Shown here in pieces: positions 16,591-27,868 of a stretch of 53,657 bases of DNA. Below the pieces are notes generated by a model. That model worked only from the letters and a program-made list of their open reading frames with translations, did no database searches and was not told the origin of the DNA. This DNA comes from Mycobacterium asiaticum (GTDB lineage Bacteria > Actinomycetota > Actinomycetes > Mycobacteriales > Mycobacteriaceae). Within the stretch, counting starts at the first letter, position 1, and each line of letters begins with the position of its first letter. The stretch lies in the NCBI RefSeq assembly GCF_001673635.1, contig NZ_LZMH01000012.1, positions 1 through 53,657 on the forward strand, written 5' to 3'. The position numbers and the translations under genes were made by a program.

Positions 16591-17388
16591 TCAGGACACC
16601 ATGAACGGCATGCCGACGGCGGTGACGATGATGTTGATGACGAACAGGACGATGAAGGCGAAGACCACGGTTTCGTTGACCGCTCTGCCGACCCCGGCCG
16701 GGCCCCCGCCCACCGACATGCCTTTGTAGCAGGCGATCAGGCCGGCCATCAGCCCGAACAGCGTGGCCTTGATCATCGAGATGAAAACGTCGATCGTGTG
16801 GGTGAGCGTGGTCAGTCCCGTTACCCAGGCACCAGCCGAGACGTGCATGAGGAACACCGAACAGAAGAATGCGCCGATCAGACCGGTCGCGGTGACCACC
16901 GAACTCAATGCCAGCGAGACGGTCGTCGCTGCCAGCACCCGGGGCACGGCCAGCGCTTGAATCGGGTTGATGCCCATCACTCTTAGCGCGTCGAGTTCTT
17001 CGCGGATGGTGCGGGCACCTAGATCGGCGCACATCGCTGTGGACCCCGCGCCGGCCACCACCAACACGGTGACGATCGGTGCACTCTGGTCGACGGTGAA
17101 GATCGCGCAGCCGGTCCCGGAGAAGTCGGCGGCGCCGATGTCGGTCAGCAGCACGTTGAACAGGAATCCCGAGATCACCGCCCAGGGGATCGTCATCAGG
17201 ATGCCCGGCAAGGTGGAAACCCGCGCCACGAACCAGCATTGGAACAGGTATTCGCGCCACGCAAAGGGCCGACGGAACATGCACACGAAGGTGTCGAGCG
17301 TCATTGCGAAGAAATCGCCCATCGCACCGAGTGGCTTGATGGCTGCGACGGGCGCCTTGCCGACCGCGATCACCATCTCGCTGCGCAC
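16591..17388 (-). CDS. yrbE3A: YrbEA/MlaE-type integral membrane permease
   Basis: This is the first gene of the mce3 operon. The 265-residue MlaE-family permease has the ATPase-coupling loop IREELDALRVMGINPIQALA and several long hydrophobic helices (NETVVFAFIVLFVINIIVTA near the C-terminus). The start used is GTG17388 (VRSEMVIAV); the ATG four codons later is equally possible. Its promoter must lie in 17389-17600, where a candidate Mce3R operator is found at 17472-17488. Confidence 0.92.
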   Translation of the reverse strand: MRSEMVIAVGKAPVAAIKPLGAMGDFFAMTLDTFVCMFRRPFAWREYLFQCWFVARVSTLPGILMTIPWAVISGFLFNVLLTDIGAADFSGTGCAIFTVDQSAPIVTVLVVAGAGSTAMCADLGARTIREELDALRVMGINPIQALAVPRVLAATTVSLALSSVVTATGLIGAFFCSVFLMHVSAGAWVTGLTTLTHTIDVFISMIKATLFGLMAGLIACYKGMSVGGGPAGVGRAVNETVVFAFIVLFVINIIVTAVGMPFMVS

Positions 17389-17471
17389 CGCCGGTGAATC
17401 ATCACGCTGGCCCCCCGGACAGGTCGAAGTGGACGAGTGACACCCGCGAGGTTACGCGGCGCGATACCCTC

Positions 17472-17488
17472 ATGTCCATAGTCAATAC
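17472..17488 (+). promoter_or_regulatory. Candidate Mce3R operator upstream of yrbE3A
   Basis: The 17-mer atgtccatagtcaatac lies 84 bp upstream of the yrbE3A start. It matches the site at 26830-26846 (minus strand) at 15 of 17 positions, and the match continues with cgc on the 3' side in both. It matches 17908-17924 over GTCCATA-TCAATA. It is not palindromic, which would suit a regulator with two different HTH domains. Binding by Mce3R is inference from location. Confidence 0.55.
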
Positions 17489-17599
17489 GCAATAATTCAG
17501 GCAACCGCAGCGTAAAAACCGATGCAAATGGCCATATACGCTGTATGATGTATTTAGGCAGTACACGTTGTCTGTCATGCCGGCGTCAGTCGTAGTGCC

Positions 17600-17899
17600 C
17601 CCGACGGACACAACTTGACCGCCGTCCGCACCCGGCCCTCCTGGTCGCCCGGTACCTGTTGAGAGGCCAGCAGGACGATGCCGTCGGGGTGATGACCGTG
17701 CTGACCCGGCGCGAGGTCGAGGTCTTGCGGCTGATGGCGGCTGGGCCGCACCAACCAGCAGATCGCCGACGAGCTGGTGATCTCGGCAGGCACGGTGAAG
17801 TCGCATGTTAAGCGGGTGCTGCGGAAGCTGAACGCGACCAACCGCGCCGAAGCCGCGTCGGCTTACGTGCGGCTGGCCAGTGTGCCGGACATCAACTGA
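17600..17899 (+). pseudogene. Remnant of a LuxR-family regulator, frameshifted
   Basis: The plus strand encodes a recognisable C-terminal LuxR helix-turn-helix in two frames. From about 17638 one frame reads LLVARYLLRGQQ, then LTRREVEVLRLMAAG (from 17701). After an extra G in the run at about 17747-17749 the next frame continues TNQQIADELVISAGTVKSHV, then KRVLRKLNATNRAEAASAY to a stop at 17899. The upstream sensor part is absent, and codons before about 17600 do not look coding. I take it as a decayed fragment of a regulator between mce3 and mce3R. A sequencing error could explain the frameshift but not the missing N-terminus. The exact left edge is uncertain. Confidence 0.75.
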
Positions 17900-17907
17900 G
17901 CTACGCT

Positions 17908-17924
17908 AAGTCCATATTCAATAG
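17908..17924 (+). promoter_or_regulatory. Candidate Mce3R operator upstream of the epoxide hydrolase-mce3R unit
   Basis: aagtccatattcaatag lies 99 bp upstream of the start at 18023. It matches 17472-17488 at 14 of 17 positions, including GTCCATA and TCAATA. A TTCAG follows the motif at nearly the same distance in both (7 and 8 bases). It would allow autoregulation of mce3R. Function is inferred. Confidence 0.5.
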
Positions 17925-18022
17925 CTGCGGTTCAGTCGATGTCGTCAATGAACAAGCATGTAATAGCGCATTTATCCCGCATCATGTAATTTGGTGATCC
18001 GGTAGATCAGAGGAGTTGCCGG

Positions 18023-18415
18023 ATGCCTGACACCAAGGAAGCCAGCGAGAAGCTCGTTCGCGACTTCCTCGGGTCCTGGGAGGGGCGCAGCCTGGACACC
18101 ATCTGCGCCGCCTTCGCCGACGACGCCATCTACCACAATGTGCCCGTCCGGCCGATCGAGGGCATTGCCGGTATCCGCGCGATATTCCAGGGATTCCTGG
18201 ATGCCTTCGCGTTCGCCAAACTCGACATCGTCAAACTGGCCGCCGAGCCCGGACTGGTCCTCGCCGAACGCGTCGATTACTTCACGATGCACGACGGCCG
18301 CAAGGTCGTGCTGCCGGTGACCGGCGTGTTCGAGGTCGAGAACGGCAAGATCACCCGTTTCAGTGACTACTTTGACCTAGCGGACTTCGAGCAGCAAAGC
18401 GGACTCAAGCTGTAG
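18023..18415 (+). CDS. Limonene-1,2-epoxide hydrolase-like protein (EphG-type fold)
   Basis: This 130-residue protein belongs to the limonene-epoxide hydrolase family. The five catalytic residues are all present with family spacing: Tyr37 and Asn39 (YHN), Arg83 and Asp85 (ERVDYF), and Asp115 (FSDYF). In the Rhodococcus enzyme these are Tyr53, Asn55, Arg99, Asp101 and Asp132. The enzyme should open an epoxide by direct water attack. The start has an AGAGGAG box. It lies 28 bp upstream of mce3R on the same strand, between the mce3 promoter and its repressor; I recall no such gene at this spot in H37Rv. M. tuberculosis Rv2740 (EphG) is the nearest family member I know. Confidence 0.85.
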   Translation: MPDTKEASEKLVRDFLGSWEGRSLDTICAAFADDAIYHNVPVRPIEGIAGIRAIFQGFLDAFAFAKLDIVKLAAEPGLVLAERVDYFTMHDGRKVVLPVTGVFEVENGKITRFSDYFDLADFEQQSGLKL

Positions 18416-18443
18416 CTGGGCTTAACGGAGGGGGTGTACGTCG

Positions 18444-19640
18444 ATGGAGACCGCCGTTCAACCCGTGCGGCGCCGGCCGAAGGACCGAAAGCAGCAGATA
18501 CTCGATCAAGCCGTCAAGCTGTTCATCGACCGCGGCTTTCACTCGGTCAAGCTGGAGGACATCGCCGAGGCGGCCGGTGTCACCGCCCGCGCTCTGTACC
18601 GGCATTACGACAACAAACAGGCGTTGCTCGCCGAGGCGATCCGCACCGGCCAGGATCAGTACCAGAGCGCGCGTCGCCTCACCGAGGGTGCGGCCGAGCC
18701 GACGCCCCGCCCGCTGAACGTCGACCTGCCCGATCTGATCGCCGCGGCCGTCGCATCCCGATCGCTGACCGTCCTATGGCAACGCGAGGCTCGCTATCTC
18801 AACGACGAGGACCGCGGGGAGGTTCGTCGGCGAATCAACGCGATCGTCGCCGGCATGCGGGAAAGCGTTGTGCTGCAAGTACCCGGGCTCAGTCCACCAC
18901 ACGCGGAACTGCGCGCTTGGGCGGTGTCGAGCACGCTGACCAGCTTGGGCAGGCATAACCTGACCCTGCCCGCCGCCGAACTCAACGAGCGGCTCTATGA
19001 GGCGTGTATGGCGGCGGCCCGCACACCTTCGGCCGCCGAACTCGTGCCGATCGAGGACGCCCGCGCCGGTGACGCCGATGTGGTGTTCTCCCGCTCCGAG
19101 ACGCTGCTGGCCACCGGTGCACGACTGTTCCGGGCGCAGGGGTATCCGGCGGTCAGCACCAGCGAGATCGCCAAGGGGGCGGGGATCGCCGGTCCGGGCC
19201 TGTACCGCTCGTTCTCATCGAAGCAGGCCATCCTGGACGCGCTCGTCCGCCGTATCGACGAGTGGCGCAGCCTGGAAACGATCCGGGCGCTGCGTGCGAA
19301 ATCCGATCCGGCACAACGGCTGCGGGACCTGGTCCGGGGTCACGTGCAAGTCAGCCTGGACTCGCCGGACCTGGTGGCGGTGTGCGTCACCGAGTTGTCG
19401 CATGCTTCCACCGAAGTGCGGGACGGCTACTTGCGCAATCAGGCTGACCGCGAAGGGATCTGGATAGACCTCGTCACCGGGCTGGTCCCGCAGACCAGTG
19501 CGGCAGAGGCAAGGCTGCTGGTCGCCGCGGCGATCAGCTTCATCGAAGACGCTGTCCGCACCTGGCATCTCACCCGCTACGTCAGCGTCGCGGACGAGAT
19601 CACGGCGATCGCGTTGTCCATTCTCACCAGCCGGACCTGA
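18444..19640 (+). CDS. mce3R: Mce3R-like regulator with two tandem TetR domains
   Basis: This 398-residue protein contains two complete TetR units, a rare architecture characteristic of Mce3R (about 406 aa in M. tuberculosis). The first HTH is at about 15-60 ([20 protein letters not shown]) and the second at about 216-262 ([20 protein letters not shown]). Each is followed by a helical ligand-type domain. The start ATG18444 follows GGAGGGGG. M. tuberculosis Mce3R is reported to repress mce3 and the echA13-fadE17-fadE18 and Rv1936-Rv1941 operons; all three flank it here. The two HTHs differ in sequence, which fits a non-palindromic operator. It is convergent with the SDR gene, with 11 bp between stops. 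Confidence 0.92.
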
Positions 19641-19651
19641 GCCCCGACCGC

Positions 19652-20422
19652 TCACCAGAGCGCGGCGACGGTGCCGCCGTCGGCGATCTGCGTGGTCCCG
19701 GTGATCATGGCCGCATCGTCGGACAGCAGGAACGCCACAATGCCGGCCATCTCCTCGGGTGTGGCCATCCGGCCCTGTAGGCGGTCAATCATGTTGCGCG
19801 CCCCGCCTTCTCCGAGGGTTCGGTCGAACATCGTCATTGCGGTCTGCTGCATCGGCGTATCGACGAAGGCCGGCAGCAACGCGTTGGCGCGGATGTCGAC
19901 GGCACGCAATTCTGCGGCGGTAACCCGGGTCAATTGGCTGATGCCCGCTTTCGACATGCCGTATGCGCCGGTCCCGGCCACCCCGATATGACCGGCCAGC
20001 GACGAGAGGTTGACGATCGCTCCCCCGCCACGCTCGATCATTCGTGGGACGGCGTGCTTGGTGCACAGCCAGGCGCCCCGTAGGTTTACCCCAATCACCC
20101 GATCGAAGTCCGCGACGGAGGTGTCGACAAGCGAAGCCATGTGCACCACACCGGCGTTGGCCACCAGTTTGTCCACCCCGCCGAACTCGTCGACGCAGGC
20201 TGCCACCATGGCGATGACTTCATCCTCGACGCTGACATCGGCCCGGTGACCCAGCGCGCCCGCACCCACCTTCGTGGCGGCGGTGTCGGCGGCGATGGCA
20301 TCGATGTCCGCACACAGCACATTGCAGCCCTCGACGGCGAGCCGTTGCGCCACGGCCAGGCCGATACCGGCGCCGGCTCCGGTTACGATGGCGGCCTTGC
20401 CGGCCAGGCCTGAATGCCCCAC
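19652..20422 (-). CDS. Short-chain dehydrogenase/reductase, Rv1941-like
   Basis: This classical SDR of 256 residues has the cofactor motif TGAGAGIG near residue 15, an ADVSV segment and VANAG at about 87-91. The catalytic Ser is in NLSSLAG and the YxxxK is in YGMSK. Asp39 of CADID at the end of the second strand suggests NAD(H) rather than NADP(H). It is the last gene of the mel2-type operon, 3 bp after ribA1, and has the same length and position as Rv1941. It probably oxidises a hydroxyl group formed by the upstream oxygenase and epoxide hydrolase; the substrate is unknown. Confidence 0.88.
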   Translation of the reverse strand: MGHSGLAGKAAIVTGAGAGIGLAVAQRLAVEGCNVLCADIDAIAADTAATKVGAGALGHRADVSVEDEVIAMVAACVDEFGGVDKLVANAGVVHMASLVDTSVADFDRVIGVNLRGAWLCTKHAVPRMIERGGGAIVNLSSLAGHIGVAGTGAYGMSKAGISQLTRVTAAELRAVDIRANALLPAFVDTPMQQTAMTMFDRTLGEGGARNMIDRLQGRMATPEEMAGIVAFLLSDDAAMITGTTQIADGGTVAALW

Positions 20423-20425
20423 CGA

Positions 20426-21511
20426 TCAGCCCGCGACCGCGAGAGCCTGTGTACCGATGCCCCGCTCGCGAATCGCCCCGAACAACACAAGACCGAATCC
20501 TGGTACTTCCTCGGATAATTCGAGCGCGAACACCCCGAGATCGCGCAGCATCCAGGCGACGGTGTCCGAGATGTTCCGGTGGGTGACGGCGGTCGCGGGT
20601 GCGAACAGACCGCACGCGCGCGGTGGGCCGGACGGACGCAGGTACAGCACGACACCGCCCGCCTGTGCCCTCATTCTGGTCATGGCACGGTCGAGTTCGT
20701 CACCACACCGACAAGCGTTGGAGCCGAACACGTCTCCGGTCAGACACTCGACGTGGACGTGCAACGGCAGCGGCACCCCCGCACCGGCGGCTCCCACGAT
20801 CAACGCCAGGTGTTCGCCGCCGTCGTAGACATCTCGGTATCCGATCGCCCGGCAGTTGCCCGCCCGGGTGGGCAGGATCGTCTCTGTCAGCCGAACCACC
20901 TGCGGTTCGGTTCGCCGTCGGTACGCCACCAACTCGGCCATGGACACCACGGCCAGTCCGTGCGCGACAGCGAATTCCACCGGCTCGGGGCCACGAGCCA
21001 GCAGCGCGGGATCGCGCCGCGAGACGATCTCACTGAAGGCCGCGCAGCGTCCCCGCCCCGCAAGGAATGCCAGATCGGCGGCAGCCTCCGCGGGCCCGCG
21101 TCGGCTCAGCACCCCGTTGGCCTCGACCCGGACCGGGATCACGTGACCCGGACGCTGCAGGTCCGAGGCGACCGTGGCGGGTGACGCAAGCGCGGCTATG
21201 GTCCGCGCCCGATCCGCGCCCGAGATGCCGGTGCCAGTGCCGCGGGCGTCCACCGACACGCAATGGGTGAGCGCAGCATCGGCGGCGTGCGACATCGGCG
21301 GCAGGTTCAGCCGCAGGCATTCCTTGTCCGGCAATGCGACTCGCACGTAGCCCGAGGTATGGCGGATGACGAAGTGCAGTAGCGCTGGGGTCGCGGTCTC
21401 GGCGGCGAACACCAGCTGGCCGTCGCCGTCGGCGCCGTCGCTGAGGACGACGGACCGTCCGGCGGCCATCGCGGTGATCGCACGCCGCACCCGTACATCG
21501 GTTGTTTTCAT
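20426..21511 (-). CDS. ribA1: Degenerate RibBA (DHBP synthase + GTP cyclohydrolase II), RibA1-like
   Basis: The start is the ATG at 21511, overlapping the flavin reductase stop (ATGA). The 361 residues keep both domains of RibBA. The DHBP-synthase part is at about 1-200 (SVDARGTGTGISGADRA, PGHVIPV) and the cyclohydrolase II part at about 205-350, with the three zinc Cys (Cys256, Cys267, Cys269). Key catalytic parts are altered. The acidic loop near residue 26-31 reads DGADGDG, where active enzymes have an EDREN-type sequence. The His of RxGHTEA is Pro in RRGPAEA, and the YLRxEGRGIGL motif of cyclohydrolase is YLRPSGPPRACGL. The protein is therefore probably not a riboflavin-pathway enzyme. 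Order and length match Rv1940. Confidence 0.85.
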   Translation of the reverse strand: MKTTDVRVRRAITAMAAGRSVVLSDGADGDGQLVFAAETATPALLHFVIRHTSGYVRVALPDKECLRLNLPPMSHAADAALTHCVSVDARGTGTGISGADRARTIAALASPATVASDLQRPGHVIPVRVEANGVLSRRGPAEAAADLAFLAGRGRCAAFSEIVSRRDPALLARGPEPVEFAVAHGLAVVSMAELVAYRRRTEPQVVRLTETILPTRAGNCRAIGYRDVYDGGEHLALIVGAAGAGVPLPLHVHVECLTGDVFGSNACRCGDELDRAMTRMRAQAGGVVLYLRPSGPPRACGLFAPATAVTHRNISDTVAWMLRDLGVFALELSEEVPGFGLVLFGAIRERGIGTQALAVAG

Positions 21512-22005
21512 GCACTGTCCTGGAGTGCCAGCCGCCGAAACCGGCTGCCGTGGAAAACGAGCGGCGGTACGTGTGGATCGGCGGTCAACGAGCGAATTTC
21601 GAGCACCGCGATCAGGTGGTCCCCGGCCGCAAGCTCGTCGCGAAGGCGGCATTCCATGCGGGCGGTGGCTCCCGTGACGACCACGCCACCGCCAGGCAGT
21701 TCGGTCCAGCCGATGCCGACGAAGCGGTTGCCGTCCTTGCGGGACAGGGCGATACACGCCTCATCATGCTGCTCGGCGAGGACGCTGACCCCTAGATACG
21801 TCCGCTCGCGCAACCGCGGCCACGTGGTGGAGGAATGCTGGATACAGATGGACACCAACGGCGGGTCGAGCGAAACGCAGGTGAAGGAACTCGCGGCCAT
21901 CCCGACCGGCACACCGTCGACTACCGCGCAGACCGCGACGACGCCGGACGGGAAGCAGCCGAACGCCCGTCGCAACGCTGCTTCGTCCAGTCGGTCAGTG
22001 ATCAT
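21508..22005 (-). CDS. Flavin reductase (FMN-binding split barrel), Rv1939-like
   Basis: This 165-residue protein of the flavin reductase family supplies reduced FMN to two-component monooxygenases. Typical motifs are AFGCFPSGVVAVCAVVDGVP, GMAASSFTCVSLDPPLVSIC (the FMN-binding ASSF-SLDPPL core) and FVGIGWTELPGGG. It overlaps ephB by 1 bp and ribA1 by 4 bp. The likely partner is the luciferase-like monooxygenase encoded at 25591-26700 in the same operon, which needs reduced flavin. Confidence 0.9.
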   Translation of the reverse strand: MITDRLDEAALRRAFGCFPSGVVAVCAVVDGVPVGMAASSFTCVSLDPPLVSICIQHSSTTWPRLRERTYLGVSVLAEQHDEACIALSRKDGNRFVGIGWTELPGGGVVVTGATARMECRLRDELAAGDHLIAVLEIRSLTADPHVPPLVFHGSRFRRLALQDSA

Positions 22006-23060
22006 TATCGAAGTCCGTCAAGGAATTCCAGCAGTAACCGGTTGGTTTCCTCGGGCGCCTCCTGCTGAATCCAGTGTCCGACATCGGAAATCAGGTGCGA
22101 ACCACGGTAGTCCGACATCACCTCGTCCGCCCGCTGCAGCGCCTCGGCCCCCCAAGTGGTCCCGACGTCGTATTCGCCGCCGATGAACAGCGCAGGCGGG
22201 GTCAGCGGCTTGCCTTCTTGGTCCGCCAGGTCATGCCAGTCGTTGTCGATGTTGTGATAGAAGCTCAACGGGCCGCCAAAGCCGGAGCGTTCGAATTCGC
22301 CTGCGTAGAAATCGACGTCGGCGTCGGTGAACCAGGCGGGCATCGTCTCGGGATAGAGGAACGCATCTTTGAGCTTTGCTCCCTGCGCCATGCACAGCGG
22401 GCCCGCCCGGATCACGTCGATCGGGTCCATCGACGCCAGGTCGACCCCGGCGTCGACGGCGGCCTTCGTCGCCGCCATCATTCCTTCGCCCGACACCGTA
22501 TAAGTGAGGCCCAGCAGCCATGAGCGGACGTCTTCTTCGATCTCGGCGATGACGCCGTCCTGGGCTGCGAAGTAGTCCTGGTACCAGACCCGGCCCTCTC
22601 CGGCCAGTTCCAGGTGGTAGTCGTTCGGGCGGTGCTCGCCGAATGGGCTGCCCGGCAACCCGATCACACCGCGACCCGCGAACGGCACGCTGATGCCGAC
22701 CACACCGGCACACCGGTCCGGGTGCAGCCACGCGAAGGTCCACGCGACCGGCGCGCCCCAGTCATGACCGACCACGTAGGCGTTGTCCTCGCCGTAGGCG
22801 TCGATCACACCGACGATGTCGCCGACCAGATCCTTGATGCGGTAGGCCGAATTCAAGAAGTACTTCGACGAGCGGCCGTAGCCACGCTGGTCAATGGCCA
22901 CCACGCGGTAGCCGGCATCGGCGAGGGCGGGTAGCTGGTGGCGCCAGGAGTACCACGACTCCGGAAAGCCATGAATCAGCACCGCCAGTGGACCGGATCC
23001 CTGCTCCACGGCATGGATCCGGGTGCCCCGGCAGTTCAGCGTTCGATGAACCTTCGCCAT
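22005..23060 (-). CDS. ephB: Epoxide hydrolase EphB (alpha/beta hydrolase), MelH
   Basis: The start ATG23060 has GGGAGG six bases upstream; an in-frame ATG at 23075 overlaps the upstream stop. The 351-residue alpha/beta hydrolase has the oxyanion motif HGFPESWYSW (30-39), nucleophile Asp100 in VVGHDWGAPVAW, an acid Asp in GGEYDVG and His329 in DVGHW. Cap-domain Tyr residues needed for epoxide binding are plausible (WYQDY, YHNIDND). It hydrolyses epoxides to diols through an ester intermediate. Rv1938 (EphB/MelH, 356 aa) is an active epoxide hydrolase in the mel2 locus, reported to affect resistance to oxidative stress. Confidence 0.92.
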   Translation of the reverse strand: MAKVHRTLNCRGTRIHAVEQGSGPLAVLIHGFPESWYSWRHQLPALADAGYRVVAIDQRGYGRSSKYFLNSAYRIKDLVGDIVGVIDAYGEDNAYVVGHDWGAPVAWTFAWLHPDRCAGVVGISVPFAGRGVIGLPGSPFGEHRPNDYHLELAGEGRVWYQDYFAAQDGVIAEIEEDVRSWLLGLTYTVSGEGMMAATKAAVDAGVDLASMDPIDVIRAGPLCMAQGAKLKDAFLYPETMPAWFTDADVDFYAGEFERSGFGGPLSFYHNIDNDWHDLADQEGKPLTPPALFIGGEYDVGTTWGAEALQRADEVMSDYRGSHLISDVGHWIQQEAPEETNRLLLEFLDGLR

Positions 23061-23071
23061 GGTCGCCTCCC

Positions 23072-25579
23072 TCATGGTCTGCTGGCGCCGACCAGCTGGT
23101 CGGCGGGTTCGGCTGGTATGGGCCGATTTTGGTAATTCAGTGCGATCAGTGTCTTCTCGCCGGACAGCCGGGTGCGGGCCCACTTGCCGAGCACTCGTGA
23201 CGCAATGCCCGGTTTCATCAGCGCCAGCGGCGGTTTGACGAGGTGGACCACGGCCAGGAACTCCCGGTACGCTTCGAGGTCGTCGTGCACCAGTTCCAGC
23301 AAACGATCCATGTACCAGGTCAGGACGCCGAAGTAGAACGGACGCTTCTTCTGCACGTCCTTCATCCAGTTGAACCGCAGATTCTGCTCACGGATCACGA
23401 ACCAGGCGGTGTCGGCCATCTTGGCGATCGAGCGATAGTAGCGGTGCGGTAGCTCCCGGTGCCCCGGACCGTATTTGGCCAGCAGCACCTGCATCTCGCG
23501 AACCTCTTTGAGCGCCAGACTCATTCCCAATCCCGAGACCGGGTCGGCACTGGTGTAGGCGTCTCCGACCGCCACCAGTGCGCGGGGCAGGTTCCGCTTC
23601 TTCTCGTAATGCAGGCGCAGCATGTTCGGGTAACGGAAGTTGTAGATCGGCGACGCCGGTTCCAGCCCGTCGATGTTCTCGCCCACGATGGGCGACGGCA
23701 TCCGATCGGCGAACTCACGGAACTCCTTCGCCGTCCGCGGCGGGGAGTAGCAGTTGTAGGCCACCAACGACGTGGACAGCAGCGTGCGGGAACTGTCGGT
23801 GTAATACTGCGCGGCATAGGTGTCTTCGAAGGGACGGTAGGCGTAGCAGATCACCATCACCTTGTCCTGCCACTGCCGCTCGGGCGGAACACGGTGCTGC
23901 ATGGTCGAGTAGAAGCAGTTGATGATGTCCTGTTCGACTTCCGGCGCGCCGATACCCAAGCGCTCCAGGTACTCCGGCACCCGGGTGTTCTTGCCCGACG
24001 CGTCGACGACGAACTCAGCGGGAATGACCTGGGCGTCCTCTCCCACTGCGACGCCGATGACGCTGTTGTTCGCGCGGTCGAGTATTAGGTCGGTCACCTC
24101 GGACTCGTAACGGAAGTCGATTCGTGGCTCCCCGTCGAGCCGGCGCCGCACGCACCACTCGAGCAGCGGTCTTCCGGCGCAGACGATCTCGATGTCACTG
24201 GTGCCCGGTTTCTTCCACGACCCGCCCAGCCTGATCCGGTACTGCGCGGCCATGTCGACCCTGAACGCGCCCTCGCGGACCATGTCGTCGACAATGCCTG
24301 GGAAGAAACGCTCCAATTCGATCTGCCCGGCGGTGAGCAGGTGGTGCAGATGCCAGCCCTGAGCCGCGCCGGGCCGGCCTTCGCGGCGCCGGTGTGCGTC
24401 GTCTTGTTCCAGCACGATGACGCGCTCGAAGGTCTCGCTACACGCTTTCGCCGCGGCGATTCCGGCGATGCTGCCGCCGATGATCACGGCGGTACCACGA
24501 CCGCGCCGCCTGATGTCATCGACATCGAGTCGGGCCTGATCAAGCCGGACCGGGGTGCGGCTTCTCGCCGCCCCGCTGGGAACGAACTTCTCGTAGTACA
24601 ACCCGACGCGGTGGAACCCGTTGTCGCCCAGCCAGCTTCGGGTGGCCTCAACCATCGGCGCCGGGCCGCAGAGGTAGACGTCGGCGTCGCCACCGGCCAG
24701 CATCTGCTCGTCCAGCAGGTCGGTGACCAGTCCGGTGCGCCCATCCCACCCGTCGCTGGACTCGACCACGGTGACGCGCACGTCCACGGCGGCGACCCGA
24801 TGCTGTAATTCCCTGAGTTCATCGAGCTTGCACAGATCCGCGGCGTCGGTCACTCCGTAGAGCAGGTAGACCGGCTGGCAAGTGTGAGCACTCAGGCTCT
24901 GCGCCATCGCCAGGATCGCCGAGAGACCGGTGCCGCCCGCGATCAGGATCACCGGCCGCGCCACGGGCCGCAGGTAGAAGCTGCCCTTGCTGCATCGCAA
25001 GGAGATTCGGTCCCCTGGCTTGGCGCGGTCGCGCAGATAGTTCGACATCACTCCGTCGGGGAGCAACCGGATGATGAATTCCAGTTCCCCGCCGCCGTCG
25101 GCCGGGTGGGCGTAGGAATAGTTGCGCCAGATGTCGGTGCCCGGCACCTGTAGCTGCGCGAATTGGCCGGCCTTGTAGTGCAGCGCTGTTCCCCAGCCCG
25201 AGATGTCGACGCGCAGCAGAGCGGTGCTGGGCGATATCAGCTCCACTCCACTCACCAGCGCGTCACCGGTGACCAACAGCGCGGCGTTGTCGTCGGCCGG
25301 ATACTGCAACTCGATGCGGCAATCCGAGGTGGCGAACGTCTGACAAGTCAGGATCTTTCGGGCGGCACGCTCGACATCGGACAGGCCCTCGGTGCGTCCC
25401 ATCTCATACGTGCCGGTGGTACATGAAGCGACGCAGGTGCCACAGATCCCACTCTGGCATTCGTTGACGATGGCGACGCCGTGCTCCTCGGCGGCATCGA
25501 GCATCGTCTGGTCCGGCCGGACCGGCATGATTTTGCACGTCCCGTCCGAATAGCCGACGGTGACCTGGCGAACCGGCAT
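23072..25579 (-). CDS. melG: Tri-domain oxygenase: ferredoxin + FAD/NAD reductase + FAD monooxygenase (Rv1937/MelG-like)
   Basis: The start is the ATG at 25579 (GTG 9 bases earlier is possible); the 1056-residue open frame upstream is a shadow of melF. The 835-residue protein begins with a plant-type 2Fe-2S domain (Cys41, Cys46, Cys49 and Cys79). A ferredoxin-reductase module follows, with the FAD motif RNYS at 152-155, the NAD motif IAGGTGLSA near 213-221 and CGPAPM at 304-309. From about 362 to the end it is a flavoprotein of the geranylgeranyl-reductase/halogenase-like class (VIIGGSIAGIAAAKA, later VGDAYTSADPVSGLGMSLAL). One chain thus carries an electron-transfer module and a flavin oxidoreductase. 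Rv1937 is 839 residues in my memory. Confidence 0.88.
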   Translation of the reverse strand: MPVRQVTVGYSDGTCKIMPVRPDQTMLDAAEEHGVAIVNECQSGICGTCVASCTTGTYEMGRTEGLSDVERAARKILTCQTFATSDCRIELQYPADDNAALLVTGDALVSGVELISPSTALLRVDISGWGTALHYKAGQFAQLQVPGTDIWRNYSYAHPADGGGELEFIIRLLPDGVMSNYLRDRAKPGDRISLRCSKGSFYLRPVARPVILIAGGTGLSAILAMAQSLSAHTCQPVYLLYGVTDAADLCKLDELRELQHRVAAVDVRVTVVESSDGWDGRTGLVTDLLDEQMLAGGDADVYLCGPAPMVEATRSWLGDNGFHRVGLYYEKFVPSGAARSRTPVRLDQARLDVDDIRRRGRGTAVIIGGSIAGIAAAKACSETFERVIVLEQDDAHRRREGRPGAAQGWHLHHLLTAGQIELERFFPGIVDDMVREGAFRVDMAAQYRIRLGGSWKKPGTSDIEIVCAGRPLLEWCVRRRLDGEPRIDFRYESEVTDLILDRANNSVIGVAVGEDAQVIPAEFVVDASGKNTRVPEYLERLGIGAPEVEQDIINCFYSTMQHRVPPERQWQDKVMVICYAYRPFEDTYAAQYYTDSSRTLLSTSLVAYNCYSPPRTAKEFREFADRMPSPIVGENIDGLEPASPIYNFRYPNMLRLHYEKKRNLPRALVAVGDAYTSADPVSGLGMSLALKEVREMQVLLAKYGPGHRELPHRYYRSIAKMADTAWFVIREQNLRFNWMKDVQKKRPFYFGVLTWYMDRLLELVHDDLEAYREFLAVVHLVKPPLALMKPGIASRVLGKWARTRLSGEKTLIALNYQNRPIPAEPADQLVGASRP

Positions 25580-25590
25580 GACCGACACCG

Positions 25591-26700
25591 CTAGACGACC
25601 AACGCGACTGGCTTGCGGGCGATGCGGGCGTTGAGTCTGGGCATGACCTCCTCGGCCAGCAGTCGCAGCGATTCCTTCCAGGGACCGGGGTTCTCCCGGT
25701 AGTCGAACCCGAGCACCAGCAGATGGCCGAAGCCGCCGACCTGATCGTAGGTGGCCTCCAACTTGTCGACCACAGTCTCGACGGAACCGACCACAAACGT
25801 GTTCTCGGCGAGGTATTCCGCGGTCACGTCGTCGTCGGCGACGGACGGGTGGTGCTTGTAGAACTTGGTCATGCCGAACATGCGGAAGGTCGGCAAGGTG
25901 TACTCGCGCATGGCGCGCCCCATCGCGCCATCGACGGCGTAACGGAAGGCTTGCTCGTCGGTCTCGCCCACCAGCACCTCGCGTACCAGCCGCCAGTCGC
26001 GGCGGTCCGGCGTGCGGCCGCTGCGCTCGGCGCCTTCGAGTACCGCATCCCAGTGCGTGGCAACGTATTCGGTGTTGAGGTCGAGACTCATCGGCAGGTA
26101 ACCGCGTTCGCCGGCCAGCTTGAGCGTCTCGGAGCCCGCGCTGAAGCCGGTGACACCGATGGGCGGATGCGGATTCTGGAACGGCTTGATGTGGCGCCGC
26201 ATCAGACCCTCGAACATCGGCGCGATCCCGTTGGCGTTCCAATACTTTCCGCGATGTTCCCAGGGTGCGTCCTCGGTCCAGATGCGCAGCATGATCTCCA
26301 GCGCTTCGCGGGTCATCTCGCGGTGTTCACCGTTCTTGCCGTCAACGTCATAGAGCGCCCAGTCGCCGGGGATACCGCTGGCGCCTACGCCAAGCATGAA
26401 GCGGCCCTGGGCGAGGTGGTCGAAATACGCGACGCGGTGCGCCAATTCGACCGGGTGATGATAGGGCAGCAGGTGTGCGCCCGGTGCGACCTTGATGTTC
26501 TTGGTTCGCAGCAGCGCCTGCGCCAGCAGCAGATCCGGCGCGCAGATCGGCTCCCACGGCACGGTGAAGTGTTCGCCGACCCAGGCCTCCACATACCCGA
26601 GCTGGTCAGCCAGCTCGATGATGTCGAGATCCCACTGGGTCGCGTCGTACAGGGTGCGCTCCGGTGGATGGGCCGGCATCAGGAAGATTCCGATCTCCAT
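25591..26700 (-). CDS. melF: Luciferase-like flavin monooxygenase (Rv1936/MelF-like)
   Basis: This is the first gene of the mel2-type operon. The 369-residue protein (same length as Rv1936) is a bacterial-luciferase-family TIM barrel. It shows IFLMPAHPPERTLYDATQWD, QLGYVEAWVGEHFTVPWEP, LLPYHHPVELAHRVAYFDHL and GRFMLGVGASGIPGDW. These enzymes use reduced FMN from a separate reductase and oxygen to hydroxylate, epoxidise or cleave a substrate. The matching reductase is four genes downstream. The 217-bp divergent region to echA13 contains a candidate Mce3R site. The M. marinum/M. tuberculosis mel2 locus is reported to protect against reactive oxygen. Confidence 0.92.
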   Translation of the reverse strand: MEIGIFLMPAHPPERTLYDATQWDLDIIELADQLGYVEAWVGEHFTVPWEPICAPDLLLAQALLRTKNIKVAPGAHLLPYHHPVELAHRVAYFDHLAQGRFMLGVGASGIPGDWALYDVDGKNGEHREMTREALEIMLRIWTEDAPWEHRGKYWNANGIAPMFEGLMRRHIKPFQNPHPPIGVTGFSAGSETLKLAGERGYLPMSLDLNTEYVATHWDAVLEGAERSGRTPDRRDWRLVREVLVGETDEQAFRYAVDGAMGRAMREYTLPTFRMFGMTKFYKHHPSVADDDVTAEYLAENTFVVGSVETVVDKLEATYDQVGGFGHLLVLGFDYRENPGPWKESLRLLAEEVMPRLNARIARKPVALVV

Positions 26701-26829
26701 CGTTAACCCTTCGTCGTCGGGTGCCAGGTCGGCCTGTCTGTAGGTCTATCACAGTACTAGCAAGATACTTCGTTGTACACAAGAGCCTTTTTGCTTGGTG
26801 ATTCTTTCCGATCCACCCGCTAACAACGC

Positions 26830-26846
26830 GTACTGGCTATGGACAT
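26830..26846 (-). promoter_or_regulatory. Candidate Mce3R operator in the melF/echA13 divergent promoter
   Basis: On the minus strand this reads atgtccatagccagtac. It lies 72 bp upstream of the echA13 start and 130 bp upstream of melF, and matches 17472-17488 at 15 of 17 positions with a further shared CGC. A weaker resemblance (11 of 17) on the same strand is at 26754-26770. One site could repress both divergent operons. Function is inferred. Confidence 0.55.
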
Positions 26847-26917
26847 AATGCGGAATGCGCGCGTAATCTCGCACGGGTCACGCGTTCGCCGTGTGCATTG
26901 AGCAGCGAGGAGCCGTT

Positions 26918-27868
26918 ATGAGCGTTACCGGGGTGAGTTCGATCGATCACCGGCCCAATGGGGAGCGGCCCGGAACCGACTTCAAGTTCCTGCGCTACGA
27001 GACGATCGACGACGGCCGGATCGCGGCAATCACGCTGGACCGGCCGAAGCAGCGAAACGCGCAAACCCGCGGACTGCTGGTGGAACTCGGTGCCGCGTTC
27101 GAGCTCGCCGAGGCGGACGACGCCGTCCGCGTGGTGATCCTGCGCGGCGCGGGCCCGGCATTCTCGGCCGGACACGACCTCGGCTCGGCCGACGACGTTC
27201 GCGAGCGCACGCCCGGACCGGACCAGCACCCCAGCTACCAATGCAATGGCGGCAGCTTCGGCGGCGTTGAGTCGCGCAACCGCCAGGAGTGGCACTACTA
27301 CTTCGAGAACACCAAACGGTGGCGCAACCTGCGCAAGATCACGATTGCCCAGGTCCACGGGACGGTGCTGTCGGCGGGCCTGATGCTCGCGTGGTGCTGC
27401 GACCTGATCGTGGCCAGCCAGGACACTGTGTTCGCCGACGTCGTCGGTACCCGGCTGGGCATGTGCGGCGTGGAGTACTTCGGCCATCCGTGGGAGTTCG
27501 GGCCGCGTAAGGCGAAGGAACTTCTGCTCACCGGCGACTCGATCGGCGCCGATGAGGCCCACCGGCTCGGGATGGTCAGTAAGGTGTTTCCCGCCGGCGA
27601 ATTGACGGACAGCACAATCGCATTCGCTCGCCGAGTCGCCAAGGTGCCGAGGCTGGCGGCGCTGCTCATCAAGGAGTCGGTAAACCAGACCGTCGACGCG
27701 ATGGGTTTCACGACGGCCCTGGACGGGTGTTTCAAGATCCATCAGCTCAACCACGCCCACTGGGCCGAGGTGACCGGCGGACAGCTGTCCTACGGAACCG
27801 TCGAGTACGGCTTGGACGACTGGCGCGGCGCTCCCGAAATCCTTCCGGCCGACAAGCAGCGGCCCTGA
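26918..27868 (+). CDS. echA13: Enoyl-CoA hydratase/isomerase family protein EchA13
   Basis: The start is ATG26918 behind GAGGAG; the upstream in-frame ATG has no support. This 316-residue crotonase-fold protein has the oxyanion-hole motifs GPAFSAGHDLGS (near 80-91) and HGTVLSAGLMLAWCCDL (near 147-163). A long insertion lies between them (about 92-135, NGGSFGGVESRNRQEW). The GMCGVEYF segment replaces the usual Glu-containing helix start, so hydratase chemistry is not certain. It heads an operon with fadE17 and fadE18, 12 bp apart, and corresponds to Rv1935c (318 aa). Likely role: a beta-oxidation step on an unusual acyl-CoA. Confidence 0.9.
   Translation: MSVTGVSSIDHRPNGERPGTDFKFLRYETIDDGRIAAITLDRPKQRNAQTRGLLVELGAAFELAEADDAVRVVILRGAGPAFSAGHDLGSADDVRERTPGPDQHPSYQCNGGSFGGVESRNRQEWHYYFENTKRWRNLRKITIAQVHGTVLSAGLMLAWCCDLIVASQDTVFADVVGTRLGMCGVEYFGHPWEFGPRKAKELLLTGDSIGADEAHRLGMVSKVFPAGELTDSTIAFARRVAKVPRLAALLIKESVNQTVDAMGFTTALDGCFKIHQLNHAHWAEVTGGQLSYGTVEYGLDDWRGAPEILPADKQRP

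Follow-up and report, generated by a model that had tools for sequence, protein, structure and literature searches.

Predicted two-site Mce3R operators with a conserved spacing at three promoter regions of a Mycobacterium asiaticum locus

The window, a stretch of 53,657 nucleotides of Mycobacterium asiaticum DNA (NCBI RefSeq assembly GCF_001673635.1, contig NZ_LZMH01000012.1), carries mce3R, which encodes a double-TetR regulator, together with the mce3 operon, the mel2 operon and echA13. Three intergenic regions of this locus hold a related 17-mer. These 17-mers are very probably the strong halves of three two-site operators, each predicted to be bound at both sites by the repressor Mce3R. The two-site unit spans 96 bp and is one-directional, consisting of the strong site, 57 bp and a weak site, and the window has three copies of it. 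Mce3R on both sites of each pair would repress the mce3 genes, the unit formed by mce3R and a gene for a limonene-epoxide-hydrolase/SnoaL-like protein (LEH), and the divergent melF and echA13 genes. The motif itself and the mechanism at the M. tuberculosis yrbE3A promoter have already been published (PMC11667970). In the literature passages searched, we found no earlier account of the two-site repetition at three regions, the fixed spacing, the LEH-mce3R copy or the embedded -35 box.

Strong sites and the Mce3R protein

The 17-mers lie at 17472-17488 on the plus strand before yrbE3A (ATGTCCATAGTCAATAC), at 17908-17924 on the plus strand before LEH-mce3R (AAGTCCATATTCAATAG) and at 26830-26846 on the minus strand between melF and echA13 (ATGTCCATAGCCAGTAC), exactly at the positions and on the strands given in a preliminary description of this DNA. 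As that description also stated, the first and third agree at 15 of 17 bases; of the additional CGC that it reported as shared, only GC lies beyond the 17-mer, the first C being base 17 itself. A genome-wide scan for the consensus, which it had proposed, confines exact matches to the three promoters: these 17-mers are the only zero-mismatch matches in the 5,772,654-base genome. At two mismatches, four further positions appear, none of them within the window, and the reversed-pattern control gave 0 forward and 2 reverse matches.

Conservation was followed in a sample of 297 genomes of the genus, 57 of which, the window genome included, encode Mce3R at an identity of at least 65%. The surroundings were fetched from the 56 other Mce3R genomes and from a second, broken copy in one of them, giving 57 stretches, some of which end at contig ends. 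ATGTCCAT, reading towards melF, is present in 52 of the 52 melF-echA13 intergenic regions of the fetched loci, and in 51 of them the best 17-mer match (13 to 17 of 17 letters) has the same orientation as the window copy; in the exception, L066, ATGTCCAT is present and the remainder of the 17-mer is poorer. Since these matches recur in nearly every region and on one strand, the 17-mer is not a chance element. The preliminary description had held that a lack of the motif upstream of the orthologous operons would speak against its reading; the motif is kept there. P1, the strong site before yrbE3A, is no inverted repeat (three of eight dyad positions are complementary when read by hand), and the pair that it forms with its partner is a direct repeat. 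The fit between a non-palindromic site and two different helix-turn-helix (HTH) domains in one chain, which had been suggested from the letters of the window, has been shown by electrophoretic mobility shift assay and cryo-EM (PMC11667970).

The mce3R product of the window is the orthologue of M. tuberculosis Mce3R (PDB 9b7y), its best solved relative, with 678 bits and 317 of 393 aligned residues identical, and two TetR_N stretches lie within its single 398-residue chain. The residues listed as contacting DNA in PMC11667970 were tallied in 58 Mce3R sequences; the tally covers 14 listed residues and V46, leaves out R9 and R15, which are not in the table, and excludes the broken copy, L094. R10, R11, K13, T47, R49, Y52, R53, H54, K58, R219, T241, P253, R257 and K262 are the same in all 58 sequences, and V46 is kept in 57. 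The window protein is 93% identical to Mce3R of the M. asiaticum record, and with M. tuberculosis Mce3R as query the best match in 396 genomes is 87% identical. Residue 240 (M. tuberculosis numbering), the first of the M2 HTH, is N in M. tuberculosis and S in the 57 other sequences.

Weak partner sites and the conserved spacing

The preliminary description treated the operator as a single motif. The 17-mers are real, but this picture is incomplete, as each has a weaker partner on the same strand (ATGTATYTTG..ARTAC-like) exactly 76 bp on, starting at 17548, 17984 and, on the minus strand, 26770. Weak and strong sites have only the frame ATGT...RTAC in common. With three mismatches, the 19-letter strong-site pattern gave 31 matches in the window genome, 17548 among them, against 30 in the control, so the weak partners are not detectable by motif matching in one genome. 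Comparison between genomes brings them out. When 24 of the 52 melF-echA13 regions were searched for motifs de novo, the top element was the weak site, AAGTATCTTGCTAGTACTGTG, and not the 17-mer; the search in 24 of the 58 LEH/mce3R upstream regions yielded the strong element. AAGTATCTTGCTAGTACTGTG is more conserved than the 17-mer element (1.59 against 1.49 bits per base in the melF-echA13 alignment) and, with up to three mismatches allowed, still has a single occurrence in the window genome. Between the two sites, a middle element (at about +41 to +59, AAAnnCgAwGcAAA-like) has 0.62-1.01 bits per base and probably corresponds to region 2 of the published M. tuberculosis operator (PMC11667970). 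Beside the middle element of the melF-echA13 region, CAAG and CTTG arms 10 bp apart (26780-26797) are conserved in the alignment; they could mark a bend or a third contact.

The spacing between the two sites was counted in 58 loci with the plain pattern at all offsets from 20 to 200. There were 75 pairs at 76 bp, 34 at 77 bp and 4 each at 75 and 78 bp, compared with an average of 0.6 at offsets beyond 75-79. Offsets 87 and 88 form a side peak (49 and 14); it lies 11 bp inside the weak site and is most likely the second half of that site. None of the 58 loci is without a pair. A held-out set of twelve loci, from genomes outside the first draw, gave 27 pairs, 15 at 76 bp, 11 at 77 bp and 1 at 78 bp; the listed pairs of this set were limited beforehand to offsets 74-79, while its offset count ran from 20 to 200. 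The same preset of 74-79 defines a set of 117 pairs from the first loci, and the standard deviation of the spacing there is therefore no test. At melF/echA13, all 52 loci of the first set and all 12 held-out loci have a pair; at LEH/mce3R, 49 of 58 and 11 of 12 do; and at yrbE3A a pair stands in 26 loci, yrbE3A itself lying outside many of the fetched stretches. At least one pair stands beside mce3R in all 69 genomes examined (57 and 12). A weight matrix of the weak site built from the melF-echA13 regions only was scored in the other promoters at up to 218 offsets, between -120 and +120 relative to the strong site. Its best offset was 76 or 77 for 35 of the 41 LEH/mce3R regions and for 13 of the 17 yrbE3A regions, two of the latter being too short for +76; regions where no strong site within 300 bp reached 10 bits (17 of 58 LEH/mce3R and 10 of 27 yrbE3A) were excluded.

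Given the homology of the loci and a possible origin of the three pairs by duplication, the constant spacing might reflect shared descent alone, with no functional constraint. We consider this very unlikely. The 22 bp that follow the strong site have a conservation of only 0.18-0.21 bits per base, yet the length remains fixed, and in these loci the flanks between the pair and the start codons differ in length. The distance to the start codon ranges over 62-116 bp for melF, -7 to 103 for echA13, 15-114 for LEH, 77-281 for mce3R and 52-366 for yrbE3A, in loci where the spacing of the pair is constant at 75-78 bp.

These varying distances also bear on the idea that Mce3R binds the strong site while the weak element belongs to another regulator or to the core promoter of melF or mce3R, with the spacing set by promoter geometry. 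The higher conservation of the weak element at melF, its position nearer to melF or mce3R and the little that it shares with the strong site would agree with such a division. However, the pair spacing does not follow the start codons, and it is the same at yrbE3A pairs that stand apart from LEH/mce3R, such as that at position 2039 of L208, whose weak site is about 1.4 kb from LEH. Moreover, in M. tuberculosis Mce3R protects two regions in footprints and binds less tightly when region 1 is scrambled (PMC11667970). A second factor at the weak site thus seems improbable.

The pair is closely associated with the presence of Mce3R. A strict pair pattern matches 51 of the 57 Mce3R genomes and none of the 240 others; its reversed control gave 6 hits in the 297 genomes. 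The strict pattern undercounts, since it misses weak sites starting AAGTAT and strong sites starting AAGTC, and within the window it finds the yrbE3A pair alone. With one exception, every strict match listed is no more than about 14 kb away from mce3R or belongs to the second partial copy of one genome. The exception (G018:C39:22366), the sole candidate for a wider regulon away from the mce3R locus, is unmatched in other genomes and was taken as chance. melF is found in 56 of the 297 genomes, and all 56 bear Mce3R; this list is slightly incomplete, since L082 (genome G292) has melF and is missing from it. Two double-TetR relatives from Pseudonocardia (L129 and L130, 38-40% identity) gave one match to a loose strong-site pattern, with no partner, and the operator may therefore be limited to close Mce3R orthologues.

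Orthology, the contact residues, the conservation at orthologous promoters and the confinement of the strict pair together support the reading of the 17-mers as Mce3R operators, as the preliminary description had proposed. Several points weigh against it. The weak site at 17984 is a poor match. By pattern, 9 of 58 loci and 1 of 12 held-out loci have no pair upstream of LEH or mce3R, and 6 of the 57 Mce3R genomes lack the strict pattern. The genomes are related, so the counts describe an association and not 57 independent events, and the co-occurrence of pair and Mce3R could stem in part from genes that travel together. Finally, the equation of the strong site with region 3 and of the weak site with region 1 of the M. 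tuberculosis operator (PMC11667970) rests on order, spacing and position and not on letters; for the spacing, the published 25 + 53 = 78 bp was compared with 76-77 bp here.

Direction, predicted promoters and genes of the locus

The strong end of the pair faces yrbE3A and echA13, and the weak end faces LEH/mce3R and melF, and this holds for every pair that was labelled by gene (113 of 117; 2 of the 117 lie too near the end of a locus for the promoter tally). One and the same pair is nearest to both yrbE3A and LEH or mce3R in 14 loci, and the two sides have separate pairs in 10 loci, including the window. On the strand of the gene at the strong side, the strong site contains TGGACA, or TAGACA in 3. 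TAnnnT, the usual mycobacterial -10 element, follows this -35-like hexamer at 18 bp in 51 of 52 echA13 pairs and 26 of 26 yrbE3A pairs (77 of 78 together), and in two unlabelled pairs. It is found at this distance in 0 of the 35 pairs beside LEH or mce3R only, 21 of which have TAGACA. Each gene was assigned its nearest pair in these counts; a first, cruder assignment, in which a pair up to 420 bp away was accepted though a nearer one existed, gave 26 of 29 for yrbE3A, 77 of 81 for yrbE3A and echA13 together and 0 of 32 for LEH/mce3R only. From the letters, TGGACA-18-TAnnnT is the predicted promoter of yrbE3A and of echA13. Since the hexamer lies within the strong site and TAnnnT follows at 18 bp, the strong site likely covers the -35 box, and Mce3R bound there would block RNA polymerase at yrbE3A and echA13, with the weak end of the predicted complex directed towards mce3R/LEH and melF. 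For the melF, LEH and mce3R promoters, TAnnnT candidates in or after the weak site, inspected by eye, were inconsistent between promoters.

The regular -10 element raises the question of whether the 17-mer is mainly a core promoter, conserved for its -35 (TGGACA) and -10 (TAnnnT) boxes and needing no repressor. Nearly all pairs at yrbE3A and echA13 would agree with this. However, all 35 of the LEH/mce3R-only pairs lack that -10 element and still keep both the site and its partner, by which the core-promoter explanation is largely refuted. The conserved stretch moreover spans 19 bp and includes a second element 76 bp away, and genomes without Mce3R have no strict pair. We consider a core promoter alone hardly credible as the source of the conservation.

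Table 1 Coordinates of the predicted operator sites, promoter boxes and genes in the window
Feature	Position	Strand	Description
Strong (primary) site P1	17472..17490	+	yrbE3A promoter, ATGTCCATAGTCAATACGC; conserved in orthologous loci
Weak (secondary) site S1	17548..17567	+	76 bp from P1, ATGTATTTAGGCAGTACACG
Middle element between P1 and S1	17513..17531	+	AAAnnCGATGCAAA type, from column conservation
Strong (primary) site P2	17908..17926	+	LEH-mce3R promoter, AAGTCCATATTCAATAGCT; weaker match
Weak (secondary) site S2	17984..18003	+	76 bp from P2, ATGTAATTTGGTGATCCGGT; poor match
Strong (primary) site P3	26828..26846	-	melF-echA13 intergenic region, ATGTCCATAGCCAGTACGC
Weak (secondary) site S3	26751..26770	-	76 bp from P3, AAGTATCTTGCTAGTACTGT; most conserved stretch of the melF-echA13 region
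Predicted -35 box of yrbE3A	17473..17478	-	TGGACA, inside P1
Predicted -10 box of yrbE3A	17449..17454	-	TAACCT, 18 bp from the -35 box
Predicted -35 box of echA13	26840..26845	+	TGGACA, inside P3
Predicted -10 box of echA13	26864..26869	+	TAATCT, 18 bp from the -35 box
yrbE3A	16591..17388	-	First gene of the mce3 operon, MlaE-type permease; GTG start per open reading frame list
LEH	18023..18415	+	Limonene-epoxide-hydrolase/SnoaL-like protein, 130 aa; 28 bp upstream of mce3R, same strand
mce3R	18444..19640	+	Double-TetR regulator, 398 aa
melF	25591..26700	-	Luciferase-like monooxygenase, first gene of the mel2 operon
echA13	26918..27868	+	Enoyl-CoA hydratase; ATG chosen at 26918; two acyl-CoA dehydrogenases next

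The gene content given in the preliminary description agrees with the open reading frame and protein searches; the names YrbE3A, melF and echA13 follow that description. On the mce3 side, the minus strand encodes two MlaE-type permeases and one Mce protein. The mel2 genes are also on the minus strand, and the enoyl-CoA hydratase and the two acyl-CoA dehydrogenases are on the plus strand. LEH and mce3R likely form one unit, an operon judged from their arrangement. LEH is an open frame of 130-133 codons in 32 of 32 loci (window included) where the start aligned. In M. tuberculosis, the mce3R-yrbE3A stretch of 880 bp has been called intergenic (PMC2277422).

Between the yrbE3A and LEH-mce3R operator pairs, the window holds at 17744-17896 on the plus strand a remnant of a regulator, LuxR-type as judged by eye, of which the C-terminal 51 residues are left. 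These residues are the end of a 412-residue open frame in another M. asiaticum locus, L038, where about 3 kb separate the two operator pairs. Most of that block thus seems to have been lost from the window. The second copy of the mce3R-mel locus, L094, lies at a contig start of genome G125 and is partly broken, with mce3R in two pieces; it has two strict operator matches, whose letters are equal to those in the other copy of the same genome. In genome G076, melF contains one in-frame TGA.

Proposed mode of binding and its bearing on the Mce3R regulon

Mce3R represses mce3 and mce3R itself (PMC2277422) and controls mel2 (PMC11036813), and its motifs have been described as larger and more complex, in multiple copies (PMC4482099). 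In M. tuberculosis, its operator upstream of yrbE3A is non-palindromic, with two asymmetric 25-bp sites 53 bp apart, two footprinted regions, credited to Santangelo et al. 2009, and three conserved regions (PMC11667970). The strong site near yrbE3A requires the upstream weak site for full affinity: the dissociation constant rises from 2.4 nM for the full probe to about 50-60 nM when the weak site (region 1) is removed or scrambled (PMC11667970). A single Mce3R chain folds as an asymmetric TetR unit that uses two different HTHs on one asymmetric site, and the C2 dimer holds two duplexes; looping was raised by the authors as an open question (PMC11667970).

The pairs described here resemble this operator in being non-palindromic, with two sites about 53 bp apart and the strong site nearer to yrbE3A, in their conserved middle region and in a double-TetR regulator with the same contact residues. 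The published figures imply about 78 bp from start to start, compared with 76 bp for the window pair, and P1 starts 84 bp from the GTG of yrbE3A at 17388, the published stronger site being about 100 bp from the start codon. That P1 is the stronger of its two sites is suggested by conservation alone. While one promoter has been described in M. tuberculosis, with motif predictions in a second region (PMC11667970), three regions including LEH-mce3R carry the pair here, 76-77 bp is the regular spacing across the 69 genomes, and the strong sites of yrbE3A and echA13 enclose a predicted -35 box. The operators of classical TetR-family regulators (TetR, KstR, KstR2) are likewise served by TetR-type HTHs, with the repressor beside its targets; unlike the asymmetric, directional Mce3R site, they are palindromes (PMC4482099).

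The spacer keeps its length while much of its sequence varies, so both sites are likely held simultaneously by a single Mce3R assembly, although more than one form of this assembly can be considered. Two Mce3R dimers may sit side by side in contact without a DNA loop, which is a variant of the two-site reading and not an alternative to it. This would account for the fixed spacing and the cooperative affinity, and the 57 bp between the sites are stiff DNA; the probes of PMC11667970 were also judged by its authors too short to loop. On the other hand, the same work sees one dimer on two duplexes and argues that higher-order complexes are aggregation (PMC11667970). We regard the side-by-side arrangement as plausible but somewhat doubtful. 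Alternatively, a single two-fold dimer might clamp the direct repeats 76-77 bp apart into a very small loop, as a rigid 96-bp unit copied to every regulon promoter. A two-fold dimer would need direct repeats to form a hairpin-like loop, in which the bend would be the conserved middle element. This rigid unit is a tentative and rather unlikely proposal. The lac and gal repressor loops likewise join two unequal sites at a fixed separation through assemblies with two DNA-binding faces; the repeats here are direct and about 76 bp apart, and looping at them is only a proposal.

By sequence comparison, the window holds a real and conserved set of predicted operators that is plausible in function and more sharply defined in its anatomy than first described. 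The same two-site unit and spacing stand at all three regions, in both rapid- and slow-growing species. The M. tuberculosis work had left open looping, the involvement of other regulon sites and the reason why the second site matters, and the question of bridging or looping is now testable through the spacer length alone. The strict pair, with one stray match off the locus in 297 genomes, may serve as a signature for Mce3R targets, and the small LEH gene beside mce3R enters the predicted Mce3R regulon.

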